Shown piece after piece: positions 410 to 58,000 of a stretch of DNA of 64,000 bases. How positions within the stretch are numbered: the stretch's first letter is position 1; every line of letters begins with the position of its first letter. Origin of the DNA: Polytrichum commune (taxonomy: Eukaryota; Streptophyta; Polytrichopsida; Polytrichales; Polytrichaceae). A program made the translations under genes and the position numbers. Under the pieces are notes generated by a model. The model was not told the DNA's origin. It worked only from the letters and a program-made list of their open reading frames with translations, and searched no databases. The stretch is taken from assembly GCA_950295325.1 (NCBI GenBank), contig OX485809.1, positions 16,244,001-16,308,000 of the forward strand, given 5' to 3'.

Positions 410-1209
410 ACTTGTATAATAAGTAGGAGTCATTGGCAAAGTAAGACTCCAACAATTTATAATGAGTTCATAATCATGCATGAAGGCGTTATTATAAGAG
501 TATTAAGCTATCATAGAATAGAATAGAGTATGACATAATGAGATATGACAGTAAAGAATGTTCTTATTTCATAAGCTTTGTGAAACCCTTTATTATATAC
601 TATGCTCCATGAATAGTAGATTTCTTTATTCTTCTCTTATTATCATTTGCCAGAGGTAGATACGGAAGCCAATTATGTCTAATAAGTAACCATTGGAAAT
701 TTCATCTTTGTGAGCTCTTTGCAACAATACTAATTTCATTGAGAGAATAAATTTTGTGACAAAAAAAACATAATAGAGTTATCCATTAATGAGGTATAGG
801 CAGGGATGAGTAAGGCCAATTAGGTGTTTTCGGGGGCGGAATGGTGACAAAAAAGGTTGTTTGTTGGGGCTCACTTTAGAATAATATGCAAACTTGTCTT
901 TGATATGTAGACATTCATAAATTACATTTCCTCCCTCATCCTTAGTTTTTGACAGTTATGAAGTGGACCCTACATAGTCAAGCTGGATCCCAAGTGCTTT
1001 TCTAGATTGAGGGGTCGCTTAATGTTGTGCTTCTTGGGTGTTCGTTTGCTTTTTATGCCTCAAGGTGAGTGCAAGAGTGGGCTTTGAAGTCCGTGGGTTG
1101 GCCCTTGGCTAATCCATGGTTACCGTATGTTTATGGTGTTAATTTGCATTTAGTCTTGATGGGTTTGAGAGTGAAGAAATATCTTGGGGTTAAGTTTGTG
1201 CTTCAAAGG
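410..1209. other. No gene seen
   Basis: AT-rich unique-looking sequence without an open frame or RNA gene that I can support. Confidence 0.5.
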
Positions 1210-1212
1210 TGT

Positions 1213-1530
1213 CACTAGTAGAAAATTATGTCCAGCCGAAATCAGCTGCGGTTCTTTTGACTAGCCTGATATGTAATCGCTTAACGACTAAAAATGTTTT
1301 TTCTTGATTTAGCAACTAAAATTAGAGGAATTTGGGGGCATGTAAATTACCATTGGAGAGGTGTTGAAAATAATTTTCCAACACTATATTATACGCCCCA
1401 AAATTTTAAACTTACAGTTGCAAAATGAAAAAGAAAAATCTTTCATCGTTTAACGACTGCGGATCAAGCTAATGAAAAGAACCGCAACCGATTTTGTTTG
1501 CGGTTTTTTTGGGCATAATTTGCTACTAAT
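1213..1530. mobile_element. Non-autonomous CACTA (En/Spm-like) element
   Basis: The left end reads CACTAGTAGAAAATTATG and the right end is its near reverse complement (CATAATTTGCTACTAATG). TGT flanks both sides, giving the 3-bp target duplication expected for CACTA elements. A subterminal inverted repeat sharing GCGGTTCTTTT follows the ends. At 318 bp it has no coding capacity, so it would depend on a transposase elsewhere. Confidence 0.75.
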
Positions 1531-1919
1531 GTGTTGAAGTTGACTCAAGGTGGTTGTAGTTGGAGGTTGAAGGTTTAAAATTGGAAGTTGAAATTCCAGG
1601 TCTGAAGTTGGTTTCAAAGTTCTAGGATTAGGGCTTGGTTGGAAGTGAGAGGCGCAAAATATGTTTCAAGGTTGCAAGTTTAGGAACTTTAGTTTGAAGT
1701 GGGAGGTTCAGAGTCTAATGGAAATGAGAGGAGGAGTCTAATTGGCAATGGAGGCACAAAATTGGAGTTTAGAGCCCGATTTGAAGTGGGTGGGTGGGTG
1801 AGTGATGAGTTTGGTTCAAAATTCCAAGGAGTTTCATTCAAAGGCATCATTTTGGATCATGACTTCAAGAAGTGGTGTCTCGAGATATTGAAATTGTAAC
1901 GTGTCTTGTGTGCATATAT
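1531..1919. other. G/T-rich low-complexity stretch
   Basis: Loose repetitions of GAAGTTGG and GGAGGTT; the open frame at 1699-1899 is a by-product of this composition. No gene seen. Confidence 0.4.
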
Positions 1920-6470: not shown

Positions 6471-9003
6471 TCATGAGTTGTGTTGTTGTTGCGTTGTAGA
6501 ATGCGTCACATGAGCAGCAACAGGCTGCTCTGTATCACAAGTCATCAACACCCGGGAACTATGTCTTCTCCGTTGAAATGAGTCGAAAACCACATCGGTG
6601 TAGTATTTCTGTGTCCTTGCGAGAAGCAGAGCGCTCAAACAGCACCCAACCACACAGATACCTGCCATGACGAAAAAGGTCAGGCGGAAGCACACCACAC
6701 CTTTGCAAGTTAGAAACTCATTGTTGTTCTCATGCGCCGGCGCCAAAACATTTCCACTCAATGTTGATATCCAGCCACGAGATCGGTGTAATAAGCCCTG
6801 CAACCCAAAGTTTAATCTACGTGGATTTTGCTTCTGAGCCTCAGCATCGTAGATGTACCCTGCGAGGCGTACAGACAGGATATACGATCCCACGGGGCTT
6901 GCCATGGTGACCGCATTTAACAGGGTGCCGAAATTCTTCAACCCAAATAGCTCCGAGGTTGCGGCAGGAATGAGCGACCAATGTGCACCGAAGCTTAACC
7001 CGATCATCACCGAGCCGATGTACACGGCACCCGGAAAAGCCAGGGCCATGATGGTGTGCCCTATTGCTAATGCAATGAGGGCTACCATGATGAACTTCGG
7101 CCTTGGGGTGCCGAACTGGTGAAGACACGATTCAGACAAGGCTCCAGCGCCCAACCGACCTAAGAAGTTCCAGATCGAGGTTAAGGAGACGAAGGAATGT
7201 ATTGTGGCCTCTGAGTATCCCAACGATACGCCTACTTGACCCACATTGTCCATCGCTGTTAGCCCGGAGCCTAGTCCTATCCCAGCTATGGCGACTAGGA
7301 GCCAGAAGTCACCGTTGTGGAGCGCTTGCCACACCGAATGGTCTTCCCCCCGCGCAGGGAAGTTTCTCTGGAAAGAATCAACCCTGCTGAGATTGGAGTT
7401 AGAGCTATAGAAAGTAGAAGATGATTCCGATGAGCTCGTCTCAGACTCAGCAGGGCTAATTGTTCTGCACTCGTCAGCTCCTGCCGGGGGAGCAGGAATT
7501 AGAGACTGAGTTAGCCCTCCGGCCTCCTGATTGGTTAGGGATAAGTTTTCATTACTGCTTCGACGAGTTGCATAAATCCGTGAGGCGAAGACGATTCCCA
7601 ACGGAAGCAGAAGCAAGAGAAGCGTGACGAAACACACACCCCTGGTCACAGATGGAGGGAAATCTGCTGTCACCGTGTTTTGCAACAAAATGATGCCCAT
7701 GAGGAACGCTGCGAGCGTGAGGGCGGCTCCTGCGATAAGGGCGAGGTAGAGCGATTCTTTAGTGTCGAATTCGACTGGGAAATTTCCAACGCCTTCGATG
7801 TGGTTATGATGCCACGGCTGGTCCTTGAAGAACACGAAGGAGCTCAACACCACCAACGCAGGGAACCACGACAGGAACAAGAGCACCTTCGACCCCTGTA
7901 TTATAAAGAGCACAAGTCAATTCAGAGCTATGTCAATACATTCAGTTCTTAAACACTCCATGAAATGTTTATTACAAGTTTGTGTAAGAAGATTTGCTTA
8001 TTACAAGTTCTCAATTCAACTTCTGGGAGTCCAAAGTTTTTGTGGTATAGACACTTATGGTGTCATTGGATTCCTCTGAGAGTCCTCTTTCTACACATGT
8101 TGCAAGACTTCACATGATAACAAAGCATAAACTCATAGATGCATTCGAAGAGGAAATTAGGTAGCTGTTCTAGAGAGAGGAGACACTTGGGTTCTTTTTC
8201 TCCACATGTTGCAAGACATTACATAATAACAAACCATAAACTCTTAGACACTTATATTGGCACTGGAGTCTTTCCAGTGTCCTCTTTGTACACATGTTGC
8301 AAGACTTTACATGATAACAAACCGTAAACTCTTAGATGCATTAGAATAGAAGAATAAGTAGCTGTTCGAGAAATTAAAGAGTTCCCACCTGGGGCTTCGA
8401 CCCGGCCGGGTAGATCGCAAGGTAGAATTGCGTGAGCACGGCAGCACTGAGGCCCACCAGCCCCTTCATCACACCGATGACCAGGCCGCGCGACATCGGG
8501 AAGCGTTTTACAAGCGACACGAGCACAGCGGTGATGAAGAATGACTGTCCGTTGGCTCCGACGCAGAGGAAGAGTGCCATCGCCCACACGGATGGGGGTG
8601 GGAGCGATCCTGACGCTGACAAGAATGCCATCAGGTATCCTCCGCTAACTTGGCACGCACCGAGTAGGAACACTGCCCACACGGGCCAGATGTCGAAGAG
8701 CAGCCCCGATATGATGCCCACGCTCTCGCCTAGCTCCTTGAAGAATCCCACTGTGTCTAACGTCACTTGGTCGTAGTGGAGTGCGTCTTTGATGGATTCC
8801 GAGTAGTCGGAGTATAGGTATGAGCTTCCGCTGCAACACATGATCCACATCCCCGCCACCATCATCATCCATCTATTTCGCAGGAGCCAATGCCCTGATC
8901 CCGCCATCCTGCTTGATTTCAGAATTAGCACGGACGCTGCCGTATTCCAAATGCCTCGGAGCCCAAAGCAATTAGATTCCTCCTTCAAGCTGGGTCTTGA
9001 CAC
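6471..9003 (-). CDS. MFS transporter, Nodulin-like / NFD4-like family
   Basis: The coding sequence joins exon 1 (9003 to 8389) and exon 2 (7895 to 6471). The 493-nt intron has a CAG/GTGGGA donor and an ATACAG acceptor and keeps phase 0, giving about 679 residues. Exon 1 carries the Nodulin-like MFS half: NRWMMMVAGMWIMCCSGSSY opens helix 1, then SESIKDALHYDQ, and later GLVIGVMKGLVGLSAAVLTQ. Exon 2 continues with KDQPWHHNHIEG, a serine-rich cytosolic loop, the second MFS half (SVWQALHNGDFWLL, GLGSGLTAMDNVGQVG, FLGRLGAGALSE) and a last helix before a polar tail. About 12 membrane helices are expected. Relatives in Arabidopsis include NFD4, needed for karyogamy; substrates are mostly unknown. I used the first Met of exon 1; the Met of MAGSGHWLL is an alternative start. 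It has no coding neighbour and looks intact, so I consider it the one working host gene in the window. Confidence 0.9.
8093..8380. repeat. Tandem repeat inside the MFS intron
   Basis: Three diverged copies of a roughly 95-bp unit, each opening with ACATGTTGCAAGAC and followed by ATAACAAA..ATAAACTC, fill most of the intron. A partial fourth unit precedes them near 8050. Confidence 0.7.
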
Positions 9004-36563: not shown

Positions 36564-36884
36564 TTACCATGTGTATACATAAATCAAGTGTAGATGCACC
36601 CCACATGATAACGTCTCCAAATTGGGATTAAATTTGCCAGACTTTGGACGACGTGTAGGTGTTGATGTGGTCGCTTGTGCAACACCAACGCCTTCCAAAT
36701 ATACGGGAAGCAACAATGATCTAAAAGGGAATGATAATTGTTCCATCGTCTTGTCAACACTGCATTTAGATGTACATAATGAGGGTTAGTTACTTGGATG
36801 ATACACAAGTTCACAAAAATCAATAAATTCAAATAGGTTGGGCAAAACTCACATACTCAAATATGAGTTCCTTGCTACTTTGCG
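36564..36884 (-). pseudogene. 3' part of a methyltransferase-like gene split by the giant MULE
   Basis: The minus-strand reading frame entering from 51996-52165 continues through the 10-bp target duplication (36875-36884) as R-K-V-A-R-N-S-Y-L. It reaches a GTATGT donor after 36857, and a further exon starts at 36759 after a TGCAG acceptor. This intron sits at a similar place to the last intron of the methyltransferase gene carried inside the element (after S-E-Y). The last exon itself is not recognisable, and its frame is uncertain (stop at 36584 or 36564). This is the downstream half of the gene whose motif I half lies at 51996-52604. Confidence 0.5.
36875..36884. repeat. Target-site duplication of the giant MULE (left)
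   Basis: CTACTTTGCG; the identical 10-mer is at 51986-51995. Confidence 0.85.
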
Positions 36885-36970
36885 GAGGGAAGCTATCTTA
36901 TGAGCAACGAGCAGTGAGCGGTGAGCAGTAACACATGAGCAATGAGTAGTAACATATGAGCAATGAATCC
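36885..36970 (+). repeat. Left terminal inverted repeat with TGAGCRR heptamer array
   Basis: After a 16-bp outer end, ten consecutive 7-bp units run in register from 36901 to 36970: TGAGCAA, CGAGCAG, TGAGCGG, TGAGCAG, TAACACA, TGAGCAA, TGAGTAG, TAACATA, TGAGCAA, TGAATCC. Arrays of short direct repeats inside TIRs are plausible transposase binding sites. Confidence 0.85.
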
Positions 36971-37062
36971 AAATTTAGTAAAAACACATGGGTTTAGGGT
37001 ACACAACCAAATTTTTGACAAATTAATTGCATATTTTCAATTGTAAATTGCCAATATTTTAA

Positions 37063-37310
37063 ATGAAGCACAAGTCAAAGGGCCCTATTTCCATGGATCA
37101 TTTAAAACACTTTCAATCCATTGCTGGTGTTTATTATAATAATCCAAACCAATACATGTCATTTATTGACATCCTTATACATGTAGTTACAACTAACACT
37201 TGCACAACTACTCACATTTCACAACATCAGCAAGTTCAAGTAGGTGCATAACCTCATTATACGTATATGTAGGTGCCATAATTGTGAGCCACTCAAACCG
37301 CTCACGGGTT
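37063..37310 (-). repeat. Second copy of the transposase gene's 3' end
   Basis: 37088-37310 repeats the region 39015-39262 (last transposase codons and 3' flank), sharing ATAATCCAAACCAA.ACATGT and CAAGTTCAAGTAG. The shared CCGCTCACGG motif lies on opposite sides in the two copies. It is a partial duplication flanking the GC-rich insertion, so the insertion and the duplication may share one origin. Confidence 0.7.
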
Positions 37311-37379
37311 GAGTTAAGGCCCAGAATCTACAAAAGAAAGGAAATTAGATATTAGAAATAGTCAATATGTAGGTAACTA

Positions 37380-37590
37380 CTAGGTTTTGAGACATCCGCT
37401 TGTGGATGCGAGTTGTGTAAGAGACTGGTATTAGGTCTGGATCAACCCGGGTTCGAATCCGGTTGGTTACATTGACCGGTGCTATCCCAAATTGAGCTAG
37501 TGATAAAGCAGGAATAATCTATAGGCGGATACCAAGAAGACGTTACTACGCGGATGTGCGTAGAATCTTCTCAATTATATTATATTTTTA
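37380..37590 (+). mobile_element. Possible tRNA-derived SINE
   Basis: GGGTTCGAATCCGG at about 37449-37462 is a perfect RNA polymerase III B box, with a weak A-box-like GCGAGTTGTGTAAGAG about 40 bp upstream and an AT-rich tail near 37570-37592. No cloverleaf can be closed, so a tRNA gene is not called. A primer-like relic is an alternative. Confidence 0.4.
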
Positions 37591-37599
37591 GAAACTTGT

Positions 37600-39010
37600 T
37601 ATTATTTATTTGTGTGAATCAATCAAACCTGTGAGCTAGGATCACCCCCACCCTTAACTGCGTCGTAATCCAGGTGGGGGATCACCATTTCACAGTTTGG
37701 AACATGCCCACCTCCAATGGTGGTTCTTTCCACCTCTAGGTGACCCTTAATAATGAATAACCGTTTACTTTATTACTAATACTCATGCGTGTCATAACAC
37801 GAACGTGAGAATCAACACAATAAGTCATACATTAGCTTTTCACCTAAATTCCTAGCTTAACTATCACCCTTCACTACTTCACTAATATTACTGCCTTAGC
37901 TTAACTCGGTTAATCCAGCTTAGTTCTCAGTTGACCGTTGTCCTTTCATGCCCTTGGGCCTAATTACAACCAGCTCCTGGCCTCTTAGACCAATCCCGTT
38001 ACCGGCCCCGTTACCGGCCATGTTACCAGCCCTATTACCGGCCATGTTACCAACCGTGGCTAGGCTGATCCCTTGCACCCTTCCTACCACACGTGGCTCT
38101 CGCCTATCTGGTCTGAGCACCCTTCCCATGCGTTCACAACTGTTGAGACCCCAGCCACAGCTCTCGGCCATGCAGCCATCAATTCGCATTTGTGCAACCT
38201 CCTCTCTGTCCTGATTCACCATTTAAATGAGGCTTGTGGCCTGGGCTCTTCCCCGCTCAATTTTGATCATTCTTCACATTAGTCATGTTGTAGTGCCCTC
38301 CGAACCATTTGTTTCGAACAATGTTGGTCGCAACCTGTGGAATTCACCTTCTCCTTTCCAGCTCGCCCCTGCCTTGTGGCATTGTGCCAAGTTCTTTTTG
38401 AAAGGCCGAGGCCTCCAGGCATTCGAATTCAAACAATCCCTATCCCAGCTGCGCCCTCGGCAACCTCTATCATTTGCTCCAGCTTAGCCTCCAGCCTCCT
38501 TCCCCTCTTTGGCACAACACTTCCTCCTCATTCTCGGCGGCATCCATCTAGCTACCTACTAACTCCTCCAGCATCCATCACCAGCCTCGCATTCGGCAGC
38601 GCCTTACTCCTCGGCGGTATCATCCCCCTCCCCCTGCTAGCTTGCTTGTTCGAGAGAGAGCTGAGTTGTGAGAGCGGCGGCCTCAATGGCGCCCGTCCGA
38701 GTCCCTGGATCCGCACTTTACTAGGGTGCAGTGGCACCTGCCTAATTCGAACAGTTCCCAAGCCTTTTCAAGTCACATAAACCCCAGGCTTACAAGGCCT
38801 AAGGTCTAAGCCTAAGAACCACCTTAATCACCTCCTAGTCAATTCCCTTACACCTGCTCTCATTATTCAAGCACTAAGTACTAACCTCCTATCCCTAACC
38901 TTAATTCTAACACAACTCCAATCCTCCATATTTTTTATGTTTTAATTAATTGATGAAAACTCCAAATCTAAGTTTTAATGTGTTTTTCAGGTTGAGAACA
39001 CATGTGCCAC
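37600..39010. other. GC-rich insertion inside the left arm, non-coding
   Basis: Composition changes sharply here. 37996-38055 is a 12-bp minisatellite (five units of the type CCGTTACCGGCC), whose reverse translation gives the Gly/Asn/Met-rich repeats of a chance frame. Overlapping frames up to 147 codons at 38337-38780 show no domain. Origin unknown; perhaps an LTR or another host fragment. Confidence 0.45.
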
Positions 39011-39185
39011 AGAGTTTGGGCTCACAAAACCGCTCACGGTTGGGTCGTAGTCTAAATAGAAATGAAGTTACTGAATCATTTGAAATACTTTCAATCCATT
39101 GCTAATTTTTATTATAATAATCCAAACCAAAACATGTCATTTATTGACATTCAAATATATGTTGCTTAATACAACACTTGCAATA

Positions 39186-42100
39186 CTACTCACATTCTAC
39201 AATACCAACAAGTTCAAGTAGTCGCATGACCTCATTATAGGTATATGTAGGTGCATGAATGAACTTGTCACTCTCGTAATCCACCTTGCACAAAAATCTA
39301 AACACATAATAAAGATGTTTACAATACACCCATTTTCCTTTCTTTCCCAATGCATGAGAGGACATTTTCGTGAAGTCCGGGCATGTGCAATGCGGGATGT
39401 CACCAATTGTGACACGGTATGTAATATCCACTTTGGAGACAATGTTGATTATCACTCCAAAACCTGGATATGGAATGGCAGTCACCCCAACTACAAAGTA
39501 ACCATCCATGAGTCCGGCACTCTCCCATTTGTTTTTGTGATCCGCTGTCGGTGCGGTCGGATTGCGACGAACTGTCTTTCCAAACCTGAATGTAGGGTGG
39601 GCGTCTGGGTTGGGTGGCATACGAAAATGCGAGCGAGGGATGAGAAGGGTTGCAATTGTAGAAAGCCTACGACGGGGGGATAATGCTTCCCTTTGCTGTA
39701 GTTGAAATCCAGCGTCCTCAAGCGCCAACACCTCCTCTCTTGATAGATTGGTGCCTATCTTCACCGGCCAAGTGTTAGGCACTATCGGCCAATCCAACAC
39801 ATATTTCTTCTTACTACCACTCATACAACGCTTGATGTCGTCAGGGCAGAACCAAAATTCATACTCCACATTGTTGGGAGAGCGAAATTCCTTCTTGAAC
39901 CCTTTGTTGGAGCAGGTGTGCCATGTTTTCCAGTACCGACTTTGGCATTGCACATCGTTCCTGTAATGCCCAACATCGTCTAGCTGAGTTGGGTGGCAAT
40001 CTTGCAATGTGCCAATTAGAAGCAAGACAATCAGTCTCTAACACGGATGTAGTATGAGTCACACCATGTTGTGCAGAATTCAACGATTCCTCTATGCGTT
40101 GACGAGTTGCACGAGTGTTAGGGCGAGGAATTGAAAAATTCACTTTGTCGGGTCGATGAGAATCACAATCAGCACCCGGGGGCATGTTGAGTTTTCGTTT
40201 GGTGGACCCAAATAGCTCGGACCCTTCCAATGCACAATCTCTAGTGTTGACGTCTTCTGCCCCCGGGAAAGACTTCATGACATCAGCCAAATTTTTTGGA
40301 TCTCCACACCTGGCAGCCGCCTTAAGTTTCAAGGACGCCAAATCAGGACCTTTACCATGAGACCCCCCTTTCAACCATGCACGGTAATTCGTGATTTGCA
40401 TGAAGGCACGGAACATGTCATCAACAGTAGCTTCATACATGCAAGTCATCTTGTTGCCGGATTGTTGGAGCCATTTGTTATGAACAGTCTCGGCAAGGTT
40501 GCATGTTGGCATTTCTGCACGCTCATCTATTGTCATATCCTACGAACAACATACAAATATGGGGTTAAGAAAAAACAAGACACAAATTTATAAAAATGGA
40601 AAAAATACGGGGAAGTTCAATGACATTGAATAATGCAGTGTGGTATGCACTTACAAGTAGCATATGACCACCCCATTGTCTATAACAGAAGTGCCAAAAT
40701 CCCAACCACTCCGAAAGGCCAAGGATGTCTTCTTCTGTGGTAGCTCCAGATGACAACCACCAAGAACGAATCACGTGATACTTAGTCTCGGCATCGTCCA
40801 TTGTTACCGCGTCCTTGTAATCCTTGCATATTTGCTTGTGTTGAAACTGCAAGGATGGTTTGATATATTTTTGTGTCACCTTATCCAAGCTTGCAGACTA
40901 GTGGAAAAGGCATGTGCGTTCACGTGCGACCATGGGCAGGCTTGGATCGCCGTCCCCATAAACCATCCGCACCTCATTCCAATTGGCTTGAGCATTGTCT
41001 GCCATGAACCCTTTGAAGTTTGTTTTTGGAACACCATTCTCGGCCATAACAGCATTCAGATTTTCCCAAAAGAGAGTTTGTGCTGCACCATCTTCAGATT
41101 GAATGTCACAACACGCAATGGTCAACACCTTACAGTATCGACTGTCGTACACATGGCAAGCCATTGTCGTCCAATCCTTCAAACGTTTGACATGGTCAAA
41201 CATGATCCAAGAATTCTCCATATCTCCCCCGACTTGCATCCTCTTTACAAGCTCCACACCACTGCACGGAAGGTCTACGGACATCTTGAAAACAAAAATC
41301 TTGTCTTTCGATTGCCCTGGGAACTGACTATCATGGACAAACTTGAAAGCAAAATGGTCTTTGAGTGCCATAATACTATCCATAGTTCCCATTCCACTAC
41401 GCACAAAACGTTTTGATTCAAATACAAAATTACGACAATTTGGGAAGGCTAGAGTGCTGAATTTGTCCATGACCACCCGTAAGGAAGAACCAACCAAGTG
41501 ATGGCTTTCTACAATTGTGGGAGATCTAAGAAGGTAATCGGCCAAGAATTGTTTGCTCGCGGCCATAACTATGGCGGAATTTGTGGCTGTGGGTGTTTTC
41601 AACACTTCATTGGCAACGCACTGGTATGCCATGTCCAATGATTCACGACATGTACCATTGGATACAGGGTGATCATGTACACCAAGATGAATGCAAGCTC
41701 TGGACATCCCAGCAGAGGCGGAATGAATGTATATAATGCGAGCAGGGCACAAAGCAATGCACACAGGTGTTGAACGACATACCTTACACTGGATAGTAGA
41801 CCTAGTAGGGGCAACATTACCCACAAGAAATGGCAGAGGGGTTGAACCGGCCCATTCAGTGGTGTTGCGCAGACCCCCATTGCGATGCATATAATCACAG
41901 TAGTTATTAGGACATTGGAGATGACCTGCACAAGTAGAACGCCGAAAGGATAATCCAAAATCATTTTGGATATTCGTGGTTTTGGTGGTGCACCAAGGGT
42001 GACCGTCACACATTTTATCCATACCATCTATGGAGCGGCCATACGTATTTGGAACTCCAAGTGCCATAGGGGGCAAAACAAATAAAACGTCGCCGTCAAA

Positions 42101-42786
42101 AGAAGATGGCAAGTATTTGACATCACAGACATCTATATTGTCAAAATCAATGAATGCAAGATCTGACTTTGACCTTTTCTTAGACTTTGTGAACTTCAAG
42201 GCATCAACGATAGTCAACCCTGTAGATGATGGTGAAAGGTGCAATGGAGGGCGCTGAGAAGGTGTTATACAGTGAACCAATGTGTTGCACATAGGACTGA
42301 ATGGGGATTTGGGAAGTTGTGAAGGAGTGAAGGAGTGGAATTTTTACTTTCAAATGGAAATGACGATATGTCTGAAAGATCAACAGCAACACAAATATCA
42401 TCTTCTGAATCAGACAGCACCAATACACTATCATCATTGGGCTCCAACTTAATAGTTGCAACAGTGGGCATTTGAACTGTGGATGTACCGGATTCATTGA
42501 TCAGTAAGACAGTTGGAGCTTGCATCTGCGATTCAGAAAGACATATGACCCTAAATGAACCAGGCCCTAAAATCCACACAAATCCATCTTCAGTTCTGGT
42601 CTTTTGAACCAAAATCGTTTCATACACCTCTCCATCCGCAGAGTACATCTCTTGTTCTAAATACATGCTTCTTAGTTGGAGATTGAATCTCAAACTAAGC
42701 AAATCTTCCGAGACACACACAAAACCATCATCCTGAAGTGGTAGCAAGAAATGAACAAAGGATCCAGGAGCTCTAATGGTAGCCAT
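39186..42786 (-). pseudogene. MULE-type transposase with zinc finger, DDE core and SWIM finger (broken)
   Basis: Reading from 42786: an N-terminal domain (LLPLQDDGFVCVSEDLLSL, VICLSESQMQAPTVLLINES), then a frame change near 42300 (indel or intron). The 42292-40898 segment has a GCM/WRKY-like zinc-finger region (CAGHLQCPNNYCDY, GVHDHP) and a DDE core (D383 in HVYDSRYCKVL, D432 in FMADNAQANW, then RERTCLFH). A single TAG at 40898-40900 interrupts the frame, which continues as SLDKVTQKYIKP to RQWGGHMLL. A 115-nt intron (40654-40540, GTAAGT/GTAG) follows, then AEMPTCNLAETVHNKWLQQS, a one-base frameshift near 39950, and a C-terminal SWIM finger (C-T-C-P-D-F and C-K-H). It would cut and join the element ends in the nucleus. 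Full length would be near 1,150 residues. One stop and one or two frameshifts make it inactive as read. Confidence 0.88.
40540..40654 (-). other. Intron of the transposase gene
   Basis: 115 nt with GTAAGT donor and GTAG acceptor, phase 0 on both sides; supports a nuclear plant-expressed ancestor. Confidence 0.75.
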
Positions 42787-43157
42787 GGAAAAAAAAGCAA
42801 TAGATGCACGTCACAATAATATTGGATGGACGGAGGTTATTATACTGAATGGTATGTACTAAAAAATGGGGTGTAGATCAAAACTTTGAATACTATAGCA
42901 TCCAATAAATACACAAGTAGACAACTCACACTGACAGTCAAAGAATAGATTAGGCCAAACATAGAACCCTAAACCAAACCCAATAAACTATCTCATTTGG
43001 AAACAAAACCATAGCGAAACCCAATGCACAACTGAGATGTGGATCTTAAGTTCATGACACCATAAGTCATGTCCATTATAACATTGGGAAGAATACATGA
43101 AGAAGAGATTTAACTAATGTATATAACTTAATAAAAATATAAACTATTTAGAATATA

Positions 43158-43264
43158 GATCTATATATCTATATATCTATGTCTATATGTCTATATGTCT
43201 ATATCTATATATCTATATGTCTATATGTCTATATGTCTATATATGTATATATGTCTATATATGT
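43158..43264. repeat. TATATGTC/TATATC microsatellite
   Basis: Alternating 6- and 8-bp units between the two divergent gene blocks of the element. Confidence 0.85.
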
Positions 43265-43763
43265 ATGAATTTCTAAATGAAAACGGAAGAAGCGCGGGCA
43301 CGGATATCATTGAAAAACGTGTTATATAATGAACAAATACATATAAATCGATACTAACAATTTGGCGAATAATTTCACTTTTTATATAATGTTGGGGAAG
43401 TGAAGGATTTAAACCCTATAACCTTCTTAGAATGTTCCCCAATCATGTGCAAAAAAAATGATTTCGGAAAATTTCCAAAAACTCTACGATGTAATCAATT
43501 TCAGAGTTTTTAGAAATTCATAAGAATTAGAAATTTAATGAAAACAAACCTAATTTTTTGTATATCACTACATATGATGGGTGTAACTATGAGAAAACAT
43601 TTTCAAGCTAATTAATTTTAATATGTAGAAAATATACCTATCTAAAGTTTTCTAAAATCTATGGGTTTTGTATTTTTTTTATTTTTTTTCAACCTTTCAT
43701 TCCCCTCTGAACCTAAATCTAAATCTAAACCCCTTCGCGTTCACGGCCGCCATGGCCGAGGCA

Positions 43764-43770
43764 TATAAAT
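43764..43770 (+). promoter_or_regulatory. Probable TATA box of the cargo transcription unit
   Basis: GGCATATAAATAAGG lies just after a GC-rich patch (CGGCCGCCATGGCCGAGG) in AT-rich DNA. A start about 30 bp downstream would place the palindrome array inside the transcribed leader of the kinase gene. Confidence 0.45.
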
Positions 43771-43870
43771 AAGGATGAGAAGGTGTTTCTACAACAAACT
43801 TATATGAGCGACCTTCTATTTAGCACTGCCTATGAGAACAAGTTTATAGAGAAGTTGCTGGTTGGACCTG

Positions 43871-44533
43871 CTTGTGCGCTAGCGCACAAGCCTGCATTAG
43901 GACTATTTCTGTTCATTTTTCCTTTCAATGCTATCACTTACATAAGATTTGTTTAGCCCTGCTGCTGAGAGTTGTTTGTGCGCTAGCTCACAAACATCCT
44001 AGAATTCTTTGTGTTTACTTTGTTTTTCAGATCTATCATTTGTATACGATTTATTGCGCCCTTCTGCTGAAAGTTCTTTGTGCGCTGGCGCACAAACATC
44101 CTTTAGGACTCTTTTTATTTAGGGTATTCTTTAGATATATCATTTGCATATAATTTGTTGCGCCCTTCTACAGGAAGTTCTTTGTACGCTGACGCACAAA
44201 CATCCTTTAGGATTCTTTTTGTTTACTTAGTTCTTTAGATCTATCATTTGCATACGATTTGTTGCGCCCCTCTGCTGGAAGTTCATTGTGCGCTGGCGCA
44301 CAATCCTTTCTTAGTACTTCTATTCATTTTTCTATTTTAGTTCTTACATTTAGTTTAGGCTTCATTTCATTTTCTTTGGTTTGCACTTCATCTGCCTTGC
44401 TGTTGGATTATACTTGTGCGCTGGCGCACATTAATCAGGTATTTTTTCATTGATTTTTTTCTTTACTTCTATCAATGCTTTTAAGCTTCTTCTGCCCTGC
44501 TCCTGCTTTCTGGTTGTGCGCCAGCGCACAACC
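43871..44533. promoter_or_regulatory. Array of seven palindromic sites, about 103-bp period
   Basis: Sites: 43871-43890 (CTTGTGCGCTAGCGCACAAG, perfect), 43974-43995, 44077-44096, 44181-44200, 44285-44304, 44415-44430 and 44512-44533. The core TTGTGCGCTRGCGCACAA is kept, while bases outside it differ between sites but stay complementary in most. Start-to-start distances are 103, 103, 104, 104, 130 and 97 bp. Most units also share CCCTTCTGCTG..AAGTT ahead of the site. Keeping symmetry while the sequence varies suggests selection on a dimer-bound site or an RNA hairpin. Short frames here (repeated CALAHKHP) merely translate the palindromes. Confidence 0.8.
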
Positions 44534-44867
44534 ATCAATGATGACTAATTCCATTTATATATTATGGTTCATCTACTAATATTTGCTTGAATCTTGTTCT
44601 TAATTTCTTTTAGAACATTTTACAACTTTTGTTTTGTTTTGTTATTTATAATTGGATTTTTTTTAATTGATGTTCTGAACTTCATGTGTAACACTACACC
44701 TCCGATCTGGTTGTGTGCCAAATATGAAGACATCAACTTTCATTCCAGGTATTTTTTCACTCCATTATGTTTTGTTTTGATTTATTTTGTCTTGTTCTAT
44801 TTTATTTTGCTTTGTTTTATTTTGTTTTGTCTTGCTTTGTTTTTCTTCTAAATTCCGAATCATCTCA

Positions 44868-45075
44868 GCTGGCGTGGATGGATGTTTTATGCTTCCTCAC
44901 GTCCTGGGTGTTAGGACGTGTAATTACATCATACTCATTATTTCCAGCTGGTATGGTCTACATGATTATAATTTTTATGTGCATATCCTGGATTTGATTT
45001 TTAACATTCAACTTTAAATGGCCCTAGCAGACGTGGATGGATGTTTCATGCATTCCCACGTCCTAGGTGTTCATA
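44868..45075 (+). repeat. Direct repeat pair in the cargo leader
   Basis: GCGTGGATGGATGTTTTATG..CCTCACGTCCTGGGTGTT (from 44872) recurs as GACGTGGATGGATGTTTCAT..CCCACGTCCTAGGTGTT (from 45028). In the better copy the outer GACGTGG and CCCACGTC are complementary, so each can fold. Non-coding; meaning unknown. Confidence 0.6.
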
Positions 45076-45299
45076 TATGTATTTCTATAATATATTTTCC
45101 TTCTATCCGTGTACCAATCTATTTTTAACTGACTTTTAAGATGTGTATCTAAATCCTATATTTCATTTCTTCAACATTAAGTATACAACCCATAGTATAT
45201 GGTAATTTTATGTGGTTTTATTGACTCTTATATGCAGGTGTTCATTGTTCGTTGATACTATCTGCAACATATTATTCAAGGTGATTATTACTTACAACT

Positions 45300-46796
45300 A
45301 TGGAATATCTTCTCAATAAGCCTAATCAAATGGTTACTTTGAGTGTGCAAAGCTTCATTGTAGAATGGTGGGCTGACATGTCTTGGGATTCAATTCATCA
45401 AAATTTTGTATCGATGAGTATGTCCGGCCCTATTCTTTTGCGTGAGCGTGTGAAGATCATGTTTGATGATTGCATCTTGAGATGTTTTCCATCATGCAAA
45501 GAAATGTCCAACTATAATACTTGGAAAGACAACGTCTCTTCTAATTTTGTTGGACAAATGCCCGATGTGGTTTCAAAGGTGCATCGGAAAGTCACGCATG
45601 GTTGGACATTGGACAAGTTAGAAGCGCAAATATTTAATTCCGATCGGTGACGAGTGGAGATTCCACAACTTTCAAGACGTACAAAAACTCATGTCAAAAA
45701 TTTGAACCGTGTTGATCGATATGTCATTTCTGGAGGTGGTGTTTTTCTTTTTGCTTGGAGAGATGTTGTTATTGAAAAGCATGAACGACTAGACCGTGGT
45801 TCATATGGAGTGGTATGGAAATGTTTCATTAAGGACAATTCAGATACTGATCCATTCGTACCCTATGCCATTAAATGTTTTTTGGATCATAATGGAAATC
45901 CTCATCATGCAAGCATGAAGGAGTGTTATTCTGTGGCTTCCATAGATTATGGTGGTGTTATCAAATCGTTTGCTTTCGAAATGACACTCGCACCCGCCAT
46001 CTTCTTGCCTTATTGGAATGGTGGGACATTAGGAGATATGTTCAAATGTATGAAAGACCATGCAACTAATGAGTATGATGTTTTTCAACGTCTTACAATA
46101 TTCAAGAAAAATCATCCAGAACAAATCTGTAAGATTTAAGAATTGGAGCGGTTAAGGCTTTTCTTGTTAAACCGTTGTACCCTTGCGATCACCTTCATTC
46201 AAATCATGGCCGATGTACTCACCATTCATAATGTATTTCTTGGTGATTTATCCTTTACAAACATCTTATTCCATTTTGGTGAGATAGATGACAAAGATGA
46301 AATTTACATAGGCATTCGTGATTGGGGATCGGCAACAATATCGTCGGATATACGACATTCAAATCATTTCTTGCAATCTGAATTTTTGAGACATTCTAGG
46401 CTCCAAGAACGTTGGTGGGTAGATCCTGAGTTGTTATTCAGCAAAGACCACAATGCTCGTCCGTGCCATACCGAAAAGACAGAGTCATATTCTGTATCAA
46501 AGATTGCAGAGGCTATTTGGGGTTTATATGTCGATCCAATATGTCTCATAGTCATTCACTCTCGTTCTTATAATATTTTGTTACATTGTATTCGTCGAAT
46601 GTTATGCACTTCAACCACGGAGCTTCGCATGACCCCTACTGATGTCATGAATCGATTATCTCGCGAACCAGATTTTCATACTTTTCCCTTTAACAAACAC
46701 ATCCGTCAACGTTATCTTACTCTACTAGAACAGAATAGGGTTTATAGTCGTCAAATTAATTGTGATGATGAAATCCCTTTCAAACGTCGGAAATAG
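45300..46796 (+). pseudogene. Protein-kinase-fold cargo gene (two nonsense codons)
   Basis: One frame of 499 codons is broken only by TGA (45648) and TAA (46137). After a unique N-terminal region comes a kinase-like domain. It has a glycine loop LDRGSYGVVWKC (about residues 164-175), the ATP-binding lysine in YAIKCF (K192), a hinge FLPYWNGGTLGDMF, and a catalytic loop LGDLSFTNIL in which D316 and N321 are kept but the HRD histidine position is Leu. A metal-binding RDWG follows (D341, DWG for DFG), then a C-lobe with WWVDPELLFSKDH and SYSVSKIAEAIWGL. These residues suggest the undamaged ancestor could bind ATP and perhaps phosphorylate. The family within the kinases is not recognised. It precedes the ParB-methyltransferase gene by 135 bp on the same strand. 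A role in transposition or in countering host silencing is only a guess. Confidence 0.75.
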
Positions 46797-47749
46797 ATTA
46801 TACATTTTTATATTAATAAAGTATTGGATTTGTAAAATCCATTATGTATTATTTTGAAGTATATATACGATGAAGTTATTTCTATCATTTTTTGTTTACA
46901 TTTTCATTTATGTTTTTTGTTTGCAGAAAATATGTTTCCTAAAGGAAAACAAAAAGACCCATCCTCCGATGCGTTACAACCTCTCTCACCAAGAATACAA
47001 ACTATCCATTGACAAGGCGTTAAATCAACAACTAGGAAAAGAAGACAAGGTGAAAACTCCACCCCTACGCGAAGGTCTCATCACAACAAGGGACTTCAAC
47101 CTGATGTTGTTCTTGAAACAGTGGAAGAAGATTGTGCATCTTCCATGCATTGAAACGATCAACCACAAGTCCATTATAAAGAAAATACAATGACATTGTC
47201 GCAAAGATTGGAGCCATTTTTGGGACAAGATCAAAATATCACTGAAGATATTGCAACAAAAATTGTGGATAATATTGTGGATTTAGTTGCAGAATAAGTT
47301 ATTGAGGAATCCACTTTAGAGAAATTGCATGAAGAAAATCAAGACAATCTGTAATATGATGATACACAAGACTCTAAAGAGAATCAACACTTTCAAGTGA
47401 CACAAACTTCTCCAGAGAATCAACAATTTCAGGATACACAAACTTCTCCAGGAAATCAACACTTTCAAGAGACACCAAATTCTCAACATACTAAACAATT
47501 TCAAGAACAACAACTTTCTCTTGTGAATCAACGATCACAGCATAGAGAGCATTCTTTGACATTGTCTCAAGGGACAATATCTACATCTCAATTTACTGGT
47601 GGACCTTCTGAAGGTGTAACTAATCGATGCAAAAAAGAGAAGGTAAATTTTATTTTCATTTGTATTTAACGGTTTGAATTTTTTTAATTTATATATATAT
47701 TCTATTATTATTAGGTTTATAGTCTCTTACATACATAAATATTGTGCAG

Positions 47750-48347
47750 AGTGGAAAAAATGATATTCATGAAGGATCGATTATGGACACCTCCGCCTAC
47801 ATTGGAGAACCCAGCTGAACATGAAGGGAAATCCATCAAGTACACGAGAATGAGACTCTTGGATTGAAAACAAAAAATCAACTCGACATTGAATGATATA
47901 TGTGTCATGAAATATCCTGTGCCTATCCCTTTGTGTCGAATGATTGACATGGAGGTGGTTAGGCCCGCATTGGACGATGATGTATCAATTTTGTCACGTT
48001 CGTTTCTCAATGGTTATATTCCTGAGTCTGCATCATTTTATGTCTCGGTAGAGCATGAAGAGGGATACACGATTGATGTCAATGATGATATTGTGAATGA
48101 ATGGGATGAAATTTGGAAACAAAAAAATGAAGAATTTGAAGCGTATCTGACAGAGCATGGTTTGCATGCATTCAAAAATAAAATGTTTCACATTTGGGAT
48201 GGAAATCATCGCTTTAAAACGTGGTACAATACCAAAGAGATGAAGTTGGGTGGTGTTGAATATCATATAAGCCCTACATCGATAATCCTTGATGGACGAA
48301 AAGAAAATCATTATGTTATCACATGTCTCTGCGATGATATCAACATG
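47750..48347 (+). other. ParB/Srx-like domain exon
   Basis: The pattern follows the ParB N-terminal fold: an I-P-x-x-x-I strand, then R-P, D-D-D-V-x-x-L-x-x-S-x-x-x-G-Y-I, a variable insert (NEWDEIWKQKNEEFEAYL) and the signature strand and turn W-D-G-N-H-R-F-K-T-W. In ParB and Srx proteins this turn (normally G-x-x-R) binds a nucleotide. The insert is longer than in ParB. One TGA at 47865-47867 breaks the frame. Assignment rests on motif order only. Confidence 0.55.
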
Positions 48348-50039
48348 TAAGTATTTTATTCATTTATATTTTGATTATCTTATATTGTTAATTTTTTTTA
48401 CATGTTTCATCTTTAAGTTTTTCATATTTTTATATTTATGTTTATATTTTGAAATGATTCAGATCAACAGAGAAAAATGTTGTCAAACCTCGATTCATTC
48501 ACACTCTTCAAAGTGACAAAATATGGAAGTCAACCGCTGGAATGGTGGGAAGGAAGGATTAGTCCTGAGCAAATGGCTTTGTGCAAAAAGAGAAAATCAG
48601 TAAATTCTAAAAAGTGGTATAATGTCACACAAGAGATCCTGGTCGAACATATTTACAAGGTAAATTTTGTTTTTCCTTATTTCTTTAACTATGTCAATTC
48701 ATATTTATGGATTTCTAGATTTTCTTTCTTTATGCTCATCAATACTTTGTATTGTACAGAGTGAAATTGAGGACGAGGTTGCAAAAGCAACTGAAAACTA
48801 TATCAACTTGGAGGTTGCAGATCACATCGGATTACAACAAATAATTGCAACAGCATCACAATCCATCAAAACTAAAAAACGGTCAACACTGGTTAAAATT
48901 TTGGCCATCGTTGATCCCGAAAATGGCACAGAGTTTTTTGATGAAATCAAAAAACACTATGACAAAAATGGAGACAATGTGCAAATGACCCTTGATCGCC
49001 TCCATCGTCTTTGTCAATCTCAGGTTGACTCCAAAGAGAAAACGAATTGGCTAAAGCTCAGGAATGCTAATGATGACACAAAACATGCTGCATCGTTTCC
49101 TTTAGAAATTGGAGGAAATGATGCATTGGATCCATGGCTGACAAGAAGAACATTTTGGTGGCAGGTATTTATATATGAAGTTTACTATTTGATATGTAAT
49201 ATATTTATTTATCAGATATATAATATATATGTATGTTTGATATATGTATTATGATACATAATTATTTGTATATTAATTATTAATTATTTTTATGTATGTT
49301 ATACAGCTCAAAGAGGAGGCATACAAAAAAATTGACTACTACATCAATCATGATGATGCAACACAACGATTGGTGTTGGACAATATGACTTCGGATGTTC
49401 CGGATGTTGTCTCATATATTAGAACATGGGAGGAAAAAATTGGGAACATGGCCTTTTTAGTGGAAATACCCACTATGGTGAATGCAAAGACTGTGTGGAG
49501 GAACAATATATGGAAAGATCAACCAAGTTCTGCTGCAATCATGTATCGTATAATTTATCGATACATTAAATTCATTTTGATTGCAAATGGAAAACTTCGA
49601 GGTCGTCCATCATGGTGGTCTTCTTGGACACTTGCAGAAGGAATGCTTTGGAATATTGAACAAAGAAAATGGCCATCTGCACATCGCGAAGGGGGAGGTT
49701 GGTATTTGGACCTTCCCAATGGTTCTTTACCAGAAGAAGAAACACAATTGTTTCAAGATTGCAATGCAAGAGTTGAAGAACAAAGAAGTGTTGGTATTAA
49801 TGTGGGTGAAATGCCAACATTTGAAACCGAACAACCATCGGAGTCCTCCAAACAACCATCGCAGTCTTCCAAACCACATATTCAATTGAGGAAAAAAAGA
49901 AAAATAATCGATACAGAAAATGACGAACAAGATATTGTCCCAAATCCAAAGCCACCAAGTGGTTGAGTGTCGTTAAGATCACAAATTGCAACTGTACCAA
50001 AACCGGGAAGAAATCTTGATTTTATTCCCAAGGTAGGCC

Positions 50040-50996
50040 TTGTTAAAGGTGATTGGTACGATTGTCATGTTTTTTATGAAAAACACAAAAAAAACATCTC
50101 CTGATTTCAAAAATTTGATGTCATGGATGAAAGATGTTTCTTTGGGAAAAGTAAACAACGTGAATGGAATTGTTACCAAAGCATGTGTGGACCTAATTAT
50201 CGTTGATATTCCAGATGGGATGCCAATCCATGGTATTGACGAAGGGCGTACTATTCCTTCTTGGATGCAATCGAAGACAGATGAATGGTGGGAGACATTG
50301 TTTGATTTTTTGGAATCAATACTTTCAGACAATGGTTGCACGCTTATCATGTGCAATGCCAAGATGCCAAGACTGCAAGAAAAAATTGTGAGTTATGCAC
50401 TAGGGACCAGAGATCGTCCAAAACATTTTTGTTTAAGGAAGCATGTCAAAACATTCACAATTGTGAACTGTTTACCACAAAATGCTCCTAACGGTATCCA
50501 AACTGCTCTTTCCAACATTCTTCTCTTGAAGAAACCATCTAGTTCATTTGCCCTCTCGGATGCTGCTAGCTACATAGATCCATTTGTGGACATCAAACAA
50601 TTGGATGTTCTGTTCAATCAAATAACGAACACAAACATGTGTTTGAACCAATGTGGACAATCTTGGAGGGGAGCTAAAGAAAAAAAACCCTTTGGTTATG
50701 CAACAACTCATTGAAGCATGTTCTCCATTACGTGGTCGTATATTGGATTTGTCCGTGGGTACAGGTGCAAGTTTTCACGCTGCAAAAGAAAGTGAAAGAC
50801 ATATTTTTGGTTTTGAAGCAGATGAAGAAATACACATGGGGTTATTGGATGCTTTATTCCAGAGTTTGAATGTTGAAGCATCCAATGTATTTCAAACACC
50901 CTTAGAACCTTCCTCAAGTATTGGTCCAAATTTTGAGGATGTAGCTCCAAAGCAAGGGCGCAAATTTGTGGCCATTGATGTATCTGATTCTGAATA
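50040..50996 (+). other. Beta-class methyltransferase-like domain
   Basis: Motif IV-like segment near 50185-50230 is followed by WWETLFDFLESILSDNGCTL, a variable target-recognition-sized region, W-R-G-A-K-E-K, the motif X-like P-L-V-M-Q-Q-L-I-E-A, and motif I (D-L-S-V-G-T-G-A-S) with its acidic partner (G-F-E-A-D-E). The domain is about 300 residues. A poly-A indel separates the two halves in frame. The SAM-binding glycines are kept; the catalytic DPPY is not. Confidence 0.7.
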
Positions 50997-51913
50997 GTGA
51001 GTAAGTCTTCAAGCTAATTGCAAATTTTATACAATGAATTTGCATGTGTACGTTTATTTTTCAATATATTACTTAAACTCATATTAATATTGTTTTTTTT
51101 TTTGCATGATTAGCATTGGATTGAAAGATTGGTTTGCAAAAGTACCATCAACTCCAAATTTTGTACAAGACCTACCAATATATGCAAAGTCAATGGCACA
51201 ACACATGGCACAACAACAAGAAGTTTCACTAGAGTCATCAAGCCAATCAACGGATCTTCATCCTAGACGATTAGTAGAAATGTTCATGGACATAGAGGCC
51301 CATGAAAAATGAAACTTTACATATATATTATGAAGATGTATGTTGAGAGTTCTCCAATGCCAAGTTTTCAATTGGGTTGTAATAATTAAAATCATTATAT
51401 ATCTAATGTTTTGACTCTTCAATGTTTGTTGTTGTATATATAGTCTTCAATTTTCCACAAATATATATATATTCAATACCACGGTCATGAACATGCACCT
51501 GTAATTAGGTTTGGTTGTGATGAAACTCTTTGTGGTATATTGTACAAGTTGCATATTATGCATCCACTATATTTGAGTGCACACATGAATGCACCCAAAT
51601 CCATGCACCCATGCACCAATTCATTGTTAAATTCATTGTTAATTATTTTGCTACAATTGATGATATTATTGAACCACACAATAAAACATGTGGATGCAAT
51701 AATTTATCTATAGTTGAAATAAAGATGTATTTATATATGATAAATGTATATATGCCCATAGTCATGTGGGATTTTTTTTTTCTCATTGCTCACTTCTTAC
51801 AATGTTGCTTATCATCCCCACACCTCTCCCTATTAAACCCTAAAATCAAAAACTTTTATGCCAAAATTCCACGGTTATAGGATACTAGTGGCCCTATTAC
51901 CAAATATTTCACC

Positions 51914-51985
51914 TTCCTCACCGCTCACAAGTTACCACTCATTGCTCACCGCTCATTGTTCACCGCTCACAAGATAGCACTCCCC
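51914..51985 (-). repeat. Right terminal inverted repeat with heptamer array
   Basis: Read on the minus strand from 51969 down: TGAGCGG, TGAACAA, TGAGCGG, TGAGCAA, TGAGTGG, TAACTTG, TGAGCGG, TGAGGAA, in register with the outer 16-bp end and mirroring the left array, including the TAAC-type unit. Confidence 0.85.
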
Positions 51986-51995
51986 CTACTTTGCG
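51986..51995. repeat. Target-site duplication of the giant MULE (right)
   Basis: CTACTTTGCG, identical to 36875-36884. Confidence 0.85.
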
Positions 51996-55665: not shown

Positions 55666-58000
55666 TCAGTCAACTTTCTTCTCCATCTCCTTGATCCACC
55701 TCTTCATCATAGCATCAACTCTAATGTTCTCTTTCTCTTTTTTGTTTTCTGCCCTTGCTTTCCTCTTTTCCTCAAGTGTTGCATCCTTTGCATTCTTAGC
55801 ATCTTCTTTTTCTTTGTTCTCAATTAGAAATCCTATACTTGTTATAAGCCTGCCATGACAATGAAGGGCGTTGGTTCTCTTCCTAGATGTAGAAGTATGG
55901 AATTTAAGGATTGCTAGAATATGTGATAGTGACTGACCTTTGTTCCTCTCTGTGCTCTTTGATATGTGTGTAGGAGCAGGAACATGAGGCTGATGGATTG
56001 GTGTAGAGATTGGAGCAATACCATGGGGGGAAGGAGCTACTAGTGGGACACTAGGCTGTTCATGTGGGATACTAGGTTGCACAAATGGAAGAAGACTAGG
56101 CTCTCTTGAGATTAGGTTTTCTTCTTCCATGTAGTCACAATACCATCCTTGGTAGTGGACAAAGATATCCTTGGTAAGATCAATTGCTGCCACATCTCCT
56201 TGAGCTTCATCATTGTTGAAGCTACACACATAATATGATCACAATGAGATGACAATAAAAATCAGCTGCATGTCTCAATAATACTTTTCACATCCCAAAA
56301 TTAACATAGAAAGGATTTGGTGTTATTAGCTGACCTTGAGGTTTTGTACACCAAACTTGTTGGTGAAATTCCTTGAGTCTCTAGGATGACAAGTTCTTCC
56401 TCAGCCAGTGATAACTGTGACAATGATTGTGTTATATCTTGAGGATCCTCCTCAATAGCGACAGTTGTTATCAGCTCTGCTGCAAAGGACCCAAGTCCTA
56501 CATCAATCAATGGTGATTGAATTTGTGATAGTCCAGGCTGAAGTAGCAGGCTAGGTGGGGGGGATCAACTTGAGGAAGCTGAGGAAAGAGGCTGGGTATA
56601 GGTGACATAATGGGGGGGTTTCCAAGATGGGAGAAAAAGTTGGGCATGGGTGATTGCAGGTCTGGAGATGCCACTCCATCTTCTGCTTCAGGTACCTTAT
56701 TCCTCACATATACCTGATCTCCACCTAGCTTTAAGTCCATTGCTCTTTTTTCAATAGGGTATAAACCTGTTGTAGAGAAACCAACCTTAATACTTTTTGG
56801 TTTTAGTGCCTTTGCAAGTGCTCTTGATGCCATTTCAGCTAAGGTAGTCTTCATAGTTGATCCCTTTGCCCAATTGGGATCCTTCCTCATCTTCTCCATT
56901 TTCTCATGTGCTAGGTTCAGTTTGAAGGGATGGAAGATGGCTACATCAAGAGGCTGCAATTCATGAGTTGAATGGGCTCGAAGGGTAAGAATCTCTAAGC
57001 CAATTTCTAGCCCAAATAAGACAGCCTCTCTTGTCACATGGCTACAATGTCCGTCTAAAATTAGTAGGTGCTTGTTCTCTCTAGAGATTCCTCTTGGAAC
57101 ATTGTATTTAAAATATTGCAGCCAATCAAAGAAAATTTCAGATGTCATGTACCCATTCTCTTGCCATGACATTGCAGCATTGGGTTCACAATTCCTTATG
57201 TAATCAATGATGGGCCTTGTTTTCTTCTTGAATATATACAGGTTGGGGATGGAGGACCCTGCTGCATTTACACAGGTCATAATGCTCATCCACTCTCTGT
57301 CATCAGCTATGGTATGTCTCACTGACTTGCTGCCTTTTTTGGCTACCACTTTGATTGAAGAGTTGCCCCCTCCTGCACTCACTCCAGTCTCATCTGAGTT
57401 CCAGATGTGGTTGGGCTGAAAGTCATGTGCAGAGTATATCTGCTCAAGTAGGTTGTAGAAAAAGGTAGTTGATTCCCTATTTAGCCCTAGTGCTCTCTTC
57501 ATTTCTAGACCATCTACACACCTTAAGGTAATACTTGAATGTCTCTTCTTAAATCCATCCCACCATTTCTGACCTAGAATACCATCTCTGAATGGATGTT
57601 GCCTTGGTGCATTCTTTAGAATGGTTTGAATGGTGCATTTGAGCATGTTTAATGTCACACACAAGGCCACCTTCTGCATAGAGAAGCACCATCCTACTAG
57701 TGCTAGTTCTTCAACTTCAGTCAGGTATGTTTGATGTCCAATCTTCTTTGTAGATGTCTTGCCATTCTTCCAATCATGTATGCTTGATGGGGGGATTCCA
57801 TACAGCTCTGCAACTTGTCTAATTGAGAGCCTTTTAGACCTCACTGCATCTAAAGCAAACCTCATGGATTCTTCTGACCAGGTGTCCCTTGTGCCATATG
57901 TCCTCTTTCTTACAGGTTTGCAAGGAGCAGGGTTCTCTCTAGGGTTTGGTGGAGCTAAGTTTCCTTGAGGGCCACTTCTAACCTTCTTTGGGACTTGCAC
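55666..58000 (-). CDS. Pogo-superfamily transposase (one homopolymer frameshift)
   Basis: Exon 1 runs 58000 to 56335 and exon 2 from 56221 to 55666, across a 113-nt intron (GTCAGC donor, GTAG acceptor). Residues 43-86 form a psq-type helix-turn-helix (VAELYGIPPSSIHDWKNG). About 91-165 resembles a CENP-B/Tc5-type second DNA-binding domain (GQKWWDGFKKRHSSITLR). The DDE core has D203 (IWNSDETGVS), D316 (LILDGHCSHVT) and D352 (QPLDVAIFHPFK). The tail, reached after the intron, ends in a charged coiled coil (KRKARAENKKEKENIRV). A run of seven G at 56557-56563 shifts the frame; otherwise it is open over about 740 codons. The indel could be real or a sequencing slip. No inverted-repeat ends with TA were found. 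Confidence 0.88.

Follow-up and report, generated by a model that had tools for sequence, protein, structure and literature searches.

The element and its copies

The stretch of DNA analysed here, referred to as the window, comprises 64,000 nucleotides of the moss Polytrichum commune (assembly GCA_950295325.1, contig OX485809.1, positions 16,244,001 to 16,308,000) and contains a large mobile element that probably belongs to the Mutator-like elements (MULEs). The element proper occupies 36885-51985 (15,101 bp) and is flanked on both sides by an exact 10-bp target duplication, CTACTTTGCG (36875-36884 and 51986-51995). Its termini, GAGGGAAGCTATCTTATGAGC on the left and GCTCACAAGATAGCACTCCCC on the right, are part of terminal inverted repeats at 36885-36966 (plus strand) and 51918-51985 (minus strand), as judged by comparison of the arms and by other copies in the same genome. 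Two pairs of inverted arms, 36892-36927 with 51943-51978 (83% complementary) and 36914-36966 with 51918-51970 (77%), are composed of GAGCxxT-like heptamers. A transposase-like gene is found on the minus strand (39186-42786), and a protein kinase gene (45300-46796) and a methylase-like gene (46932-51312) are found on the plus strand. All three are broken in the window, the kinase by two in-frame stops and the other two by stops and frameshifts. A preliminary description of the locus had proposed an element of about 15.1 kb with inverted heptamer ends, exact 10-bp duplications and three gene modules in this arrangement, and in these respects it was correct.

The source assembly (408 Mb, 64 contigs) consists almost wholly of contigs C1-C7 (78, 70, 59, 59, 53, 45 and 42 Mb), with the window on C7. 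It was searched with the left 1.1 kb and right 1.3 kb of the element and with its genes; candidates scored were the best 40 of 813 for the left end, 40 of 621 for the right end, 40 of 514 for the transposase 5' part, 85 of 158 for the kinase and 76 of 1417 for the methylase, and all copy counts are lower bounds. Among the 40 candidates scored, the left end identified at least 10 other copies at 94-98% identity, one of them split in two pieces, and at least 29 further places that match to query position 755 only. The right end was found full-length in at least 10 places, including the window's own (best 40 of 621). At least 10 copies pair a left end with a right end. Three of these ten span 20-35 kb (C1:33.33-33.36, C4:44.11-44.13 and C5:16.86-16.90 Mb) and are therefore interrupted. 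An eleventh copy at C7:13.72 Mb has a left end, its right end being absent among the matches listed, and a middle piece of the element lies at C1:9.11 Mb (transposase 5' part, best 40 of 514).

Seven copies of this group, subfamily A, were read whole. They are 14,851-15,613 bp long, share 94.9-98.2% pairwise identity in end-to-end alignment, and have an identical gene order. A 10-bp duplication is present at all nine copies where both flanks were read (the tenth paired copy, C5:16.86-16.90 Mb, is left out because of its right flank). Seven of the nine duplications are exact and each is different (ctactttgcg, tccgcacgga, tctgttacct, cattggcgac, gctttggaag, gtgggggagg and gtccgacatt); the others agree at 9/10 (taaagatcta/taaagatcca) and 8/10 positions (cgttgggtcc/cgttaggccc). 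Further copies with the same gene order and different duplications are what the preliminary description had predicted. A chance repeat or an assembly artefact is ruled out by the many copies with differing duplications.

Divergence is not even along the element. The stretch at about 43000-47500 differs more than the rest in all 10 copy pairs compared. Exchange of the kinase module between copies was considered as well and is unsupported, the stretch at about 43-47 kb being the more divergent part in 10/10 pairs.

Accessory genes and the palindrome array

The kinase gene, as delimited from reading frames, other copies and Pfam, is a single exon of 498 codons from ATG. It is stop-free over its full length in only one of the listed copies (C6:9.37 Mb). 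The Pfam model PK_Tyr_Ser-Thr scores 23.3 bits (cut-off 23.1) and Pkinase 29.3 bits (cut-off 31.7); a database relative reaches 35.3 bits. Among the seven copies the kinase motifs read PYAIK in 6/7, HCDLSFTN in 5/7 and DWG in 5/7; the window copy shows LGDL instead of HCDL. A search of 5.8 billion proteins, which depends on shared 5-residue words, returned one match (94% identical) and none more distant at E<=1e-3, and no convincing match was found among PDB sequences.

The same genome has at least 54 loci with a stretch 23-25% identical to kinase residues ~22-462 (best 85 of 158). Of the loci listed, 38 are stop-free and 23 have a frame of exactly 708 codons. The one that was read (C5:45429500-45432700, frame 1-1722, plus strand) shares the N-terminal region and also has a kinase domain, which scores 30.4 bits (cut-off 31.7). 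These loci look like a separate, multiplied kinase gene family, perhaps carried by another mobile element, from which the kinase of the element may have come.

Upstream of the kinase gene is an array of seven palindromes, TTGTGCGCNNGCGCACAA, mostly ~104 bp apart (43872-44531). With up to 3 mismatches allowed, all 7 occurrences in the window fall in this interval, compared with 0.1 expected. The array lies upstream of the kinase in 7/7 copies, with 5-11 units in each. Over 37 units the palindrome arms show 95% agreement with the consensus and the remainder of the unit 82%; since the units were picked by the palindrome, part of this contrast reflects selection of the units, although none of 44 spacings skips a unit.

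The methylase-like gene (46932-51312) would have six exons (46932-47642, 47750-48346, 48463-48659, 48760-49164, 49307-50996 and 51114-51312), with introns deduced from GT-AG borders and from reading frames that continue in other copies. The main exon is open in three copies, at C1:9.66, C5:16.87 and C4:44.11 Mb (best 76 of 1417). The Pfam model N6_N4_Mtase (PF01555, cut-off 26.7) scores 32.4 bits in one copy and 29.5 bits in the near-identical database protein P0002. In the search of 5.8 billion proteins this gene also has a single match (96% identical) and none more distant at E<=1e-3; PDB sequences gave no convincing methylase match. The preliminary description had named the product a ParB-methyltransferase. 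Methyltransferase is appropriate as a statement about the fold, while 'ParB-like' goes back to a DGNHR motif seen by eye in exon 2 (47750-48346), an exon for which PDB sequences gave nothing at E<=10.

The canonical motif IV of amino-methyltransferases is DPPY. At the corresponding position the window has VDIPDG (50202-50219), and comparison of the copies gives DIPDG in 6/7 and DIPYG in 1/7. P0002 also has DIPDG, a sister element QFPDG and an older relative KIPNKM; the comparison leaves out the relative L041, which is unreadable there. Because this catalytic motif is replaced, a dead or altered enzyme appears more likely than an ordinary methylase. Alternatively, the protein could be active as an amino-methyltransferase and label the DNA of the element with N4-methylcytosine or N6-methyladenine, as proposed for algal transposons. 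The Pfam model is passed, similar algal proteins are read this way in the available part of their description (PMC12477816), and one copy has DIPYG, but with the other motif IV variants in the copies, in P0002 and in more distant relatives we consider this somewhat unlikely.

Whether the methylase gene came from a phage or another virus was also examined. None of 50,697 phage records matched it and six peptide patterns were unmatched in viral_contigs; neither result is proof of absence.

Related elements and selection

Older relatives of subfamily A are present in the same genome. One of them, D4 (C4:42.13-42.15 Mb; loci L042 and L043), is homologous to window 43477-51626, with pieces mostly 73-85% identical and one 49-bp piece at 92%. 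It has the kinase followed by the methylase gene in the order and orientation of subfamily A, and five TTGTGCGCNNGCGCACAA units, compared with none in L041. Similar element ends were not found at D4 in the stretch read, which extends ~335 bp past the last match. Further decayed relatives occur on several contigs. The order kept in the seven copies, and kinase then methylase also in decayed D4, agree with the earlier suggestion of a stable layout and not of random gene capture.

One other stretch is shared with D4. The ~200 bp at 37386-37581 recur there in inverted orientation (L043/L042) at 79%. This segment looks like a short interspersed nuclear element (SINE); it contains GGTTCGAATCC, presumably a tRNA-like B-box. 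No tRNA gene is predicted in the window by ARAGORN.

A sister subfamily, B, has the left 745 bp in common with A at ~95%. In the three loci read, the stretch corresponding to 37630-39026 is absent and the 3' part of the transposase gene, ~90% identical to A, comes next. The 5' part of the transposase gene has matches at 80-81% in at least 4 loci, of which three go with B left ends, and at 76-78% in at least 23 others (both among the best 40 of 514). The latter look like a third subfamily; five of them have, by eye, the right end of A's family 4-14 kb downstream. Among the matches listed, subfamily B has a higher copy number than A.

At least 41 sister loci are 34-37% identical to methylase residues 442-541 (best 76 of 1417, not counting two decayed relatives, C4:57.35 and C1:72.03 Mb, that appear in the same list), and 38 of the 41 are stop-free. 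For ten of 29 B left ends the distance to such a methylase-like locus on the same strand is 10.4-11.6 kb, and for two more it is ~21-22 kb. One B locus was read at its right side, where further methylase pieces (35% and 22-26% identical) and the same terminal sequence as in A are found; from the known left end to this shared terminal sequence the element measures 11,577 bp. Because it is common to A and B, the methylase-like gene looks like standard equipment of these elements. No kinase was seen in the sister elements: by eye, among the matches listed, 0/54 kinase loci come as near as 20 kb to any of the 41 methylase loci of the sister group, although a weaker kinase could be hidden. The kinase seems to have been added in the lineage of A and its older relatives. 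Similarity between A and B drops steeply from left to right, which suggests that the two subfamilies may have exchanged parts.

Ratios of nonsynonymous to synonymous change (Ka/Ks) were averaged plainly over the seven copies. The mean is 0.40 for the kinase, where there is also an excess of third-position changes, 0.44, 0.56 and 0.51 for methylase exons 2, 4 and 5, and 0.51 for the second transposase frame. Between the kinase and D4 the ratio is 0.42. These averages favour past constraint, most clearly for the kinase. They are moderate values, and together with a broken gene in all seven whole-read copies they could also be expected if the kinase and methylase genes were passive passengers, captured once and copied without any function for the element. 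This is unlikely in view of the order kept in D4 at mostly 73-85% DNA identity, the methylase homologue open in 38 of the 41 sister loci listed, and the third-position excess in the kinase.

Transposase, proposed mechanism and known systems

The transposase-like gene (39186-42786, from window frames, copies and homologue alignment) is open in the copy at C4:20.34 Mb as two frames of 754 and 455 residues, ~28 bp apart, and the gap is presumed to be an intron. Its features are an N-terminal C/H finger, D/D, C-x2-H, CNLAETVHN and, by eye, a CxC...CxH finger. At E<=1e-3 the first frame has 38 protein matches, among which one is nearly identical. Alignment of the query with 33 of the 38 matches (n=34) shows the C/H-rich finger and conserved D (23/24 sequences covered), D (17/19) and C-x2-H (18/18 and 16/17). 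The presumed E of the triad, in CNLAETVHN, lies in the second frame and is seen in copies alone. We take CNLAETVHN and C-x2-H to resemble MULE motifs, and the naming of the D/D/E triad is likewise our assumption. No convincing match to the transposase profile was found among PDB sequences. A direct repeat, ~86% alike, links 37094-37276 with 39072-39254 at the 3' end of this gene and is present across copies.

The ends, the duplication length and the putative D/D/C-x2-H/E pattern and CxC...CxH finger fit a Mutator-type transposon; the element is a probable, not proven, MULE of the cut-and-paste type. Inverted repeats at the very ends, 77-83% complementary, are a trait of most MULE groups, and the 10-bp duplications (9/9 copies) fall within the MULE range of ~8-11 bp given, with tabulated SWIM fingers, in the available part of a survey (PMC6446971). 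The preliminary label 'SWIM-finger MULE transposase' lacks Pfam backing: SWIM scores 14.6 bits in the window copy (cut-off 19.6) and is unlisted for the intact copy, and at E<=0.1 the MULE model matches 0/34 transposase sequences, each represented by its first open frame alone, although a curated model may overlook a distant clade. Another superfamily with a zinc-finger transposase (KDZ-like, for example, or unnamed) would accommodate the missing MULE match and the giant elements with accessory genes described as common in KDZ in the accessible text of PMC12477816, but is quite improbable given the 10-bp duplications and putative SWIM fingers, both within the tabulated MULE range (PMC6446971), and the presumed MULE motifs.

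On balance we lean towards a decayed copy of a large Mutator-type transposon, whose transposase acts on the ends and whose accessory block of kinase and methylase-fold genes moves along. The minus-strand transposase would bind the heptamer-rich ends and integrate the element, while the plus-strand half would travel with it. The methylase-fold protein, more likely a binding protein than a working methylase with motif IV replaced, may bind the element's own DNA, with the palindrome array and terminal heptamers as candidate sites. Such binding could counter host silencing or aid transposition, much like VANC in VANDAL elements. The idea of an anti-silencer that binds and does not methylate can be tested directly, thanks to the palindrome array and the replaced catalytic motif. 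Possible targets of the kinase are the transposase, the partner protein or host chromatin factors.

Several observations weigh against this reading, in addition to the Pfam results for the transposase. None of the seven whole-read copies has all three genes unbroken. Of 1026 changes private to one copy, 592 are C>T or G>A, an excess which suggests that the host methylates the copies and that they do not escape at present. The window's own methylase piece scores 26.5 bits on PF01555, just below the cut-off, and the B exon alone 13.7 bits; exon 2 has no Pfam match to a ParB domain even at E<=10. Mean Ka/Ks is 0.90 for methylase exon 1 and 0.72 for the first transposase frame (5' part), and methylase exon 5 gives 0.62-0.78 against the pseudogenes D4 and L041.

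A more far-reaching version can be proposed, and we regard it as rather unlikely. These elements would form a giant MULE clade whose standard second gene is a dead amino-methyltransferase turned sequence-specific DNA binder, with the palindrome array inside the element as its docking site. One lineage would have a dedicated kinase as well, the whole being a two-part anti-silencing device of a kind that is not known from MULEs.

Two other features of the window lie outside the element. On the minus strand, 56507-58000 holds an open frame of 497 residues with, by eye, the look of a pogo/jerky-type DDE transposase. Also on the minus strand, open frames of 480 and 209 residues at 6471-9003 resemble by eye the exons of a nodulin-like transporter of the major facilitator superfamily, and are probably a host gene.

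The algal account of ParB-methyltransferases is said to go back to Iyer 2011 and Petroll 2025. In the available parts of the papers compared here, cargo of this type is already known, which qualifies the earlier statement that no Mutator-group element was known to carry a kinase plus a ParB-methyltransferase gene. Brown, green and red algae are reported to have transposons with ParB-methyltransferase genes (PMC12477816), and in fungal IS3EU elements the genes for a transposase, TET/JBP and an alpha-kinase stand in fixed order (PMC12730594). The main texts of a MULE survey (PMC6446971) and a review (PMC13317346) contain neither 'kinase' nor 'methyltransferase'. For the combination of kinase and methylase in a Mutator-like element, the gene shared with a sister subfamily and the palindrome array, no report was found in the literature searched.

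A close likeness is to Sola1-1_Ec32 of Ectocarpus and the green and red algal transposons (PMC12477816). They too are large DNA transposons (21.5 kb for Sola1-1_Ec32) with a methylase-fold protein of ~1100 residues on the strand opposite the transposase, and a ParB-like part has been claimed for both, unconfirmed here. Their transposase is of another superfamily and no kinase is mentioned in the text available, whereas the moss gene has an altered motif IV and six exons. In the TET-plus IS3EU elements of fungi (PMC12730594), too, a transposase gene is combined in fixed order with a kinase gene and one of the DNA-modification type, and transposase and kinase are oppositely oriented. They differ in having 6-bp duplications, an alpha-kinase, a TET/JBP dioxygenase and another superfamily, and in placing the modification gene between transposase and kinase.

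Within the Mutator type, VANDAL and Hiun MULEs carry the accessory gene VANC (PMC6446971, PMC13317346, PMC5735166, PMC10398659). In the available text VANC is sequence-specific and anti-silencing, a role that for the moss element is assumed only, and is not described as a kinase or methylase. Pack-MULEs and ULP1-carrying MULEs also have extra genes (PMC13317346), but Pack-MULEs hold host-gene fragments and no transposase, unlike the moss element with its transposase gene and whole cargo genes. Retrotransposons carrying DNMT genes in Symbiodinium and Klebsormidium (PMC5890265) are likewise mobile elements with DNA-methylation enzymes; these, however, are C5-cytosine enzymes, in Klebsormidium inside the Pol polyprotein. 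The moss case shows whole, intron-containing accessory genes that keep their order within a Mutator-type family. Two subfamilies share a methylase-fold gene in which they differ strongly. Such passenger genes may help a transposon evade host silencing. Together with the algal and fungal cases, the moss element suggests that DNA-modification-type proteins have been recruited repeatedly by unrelated giant transposons.

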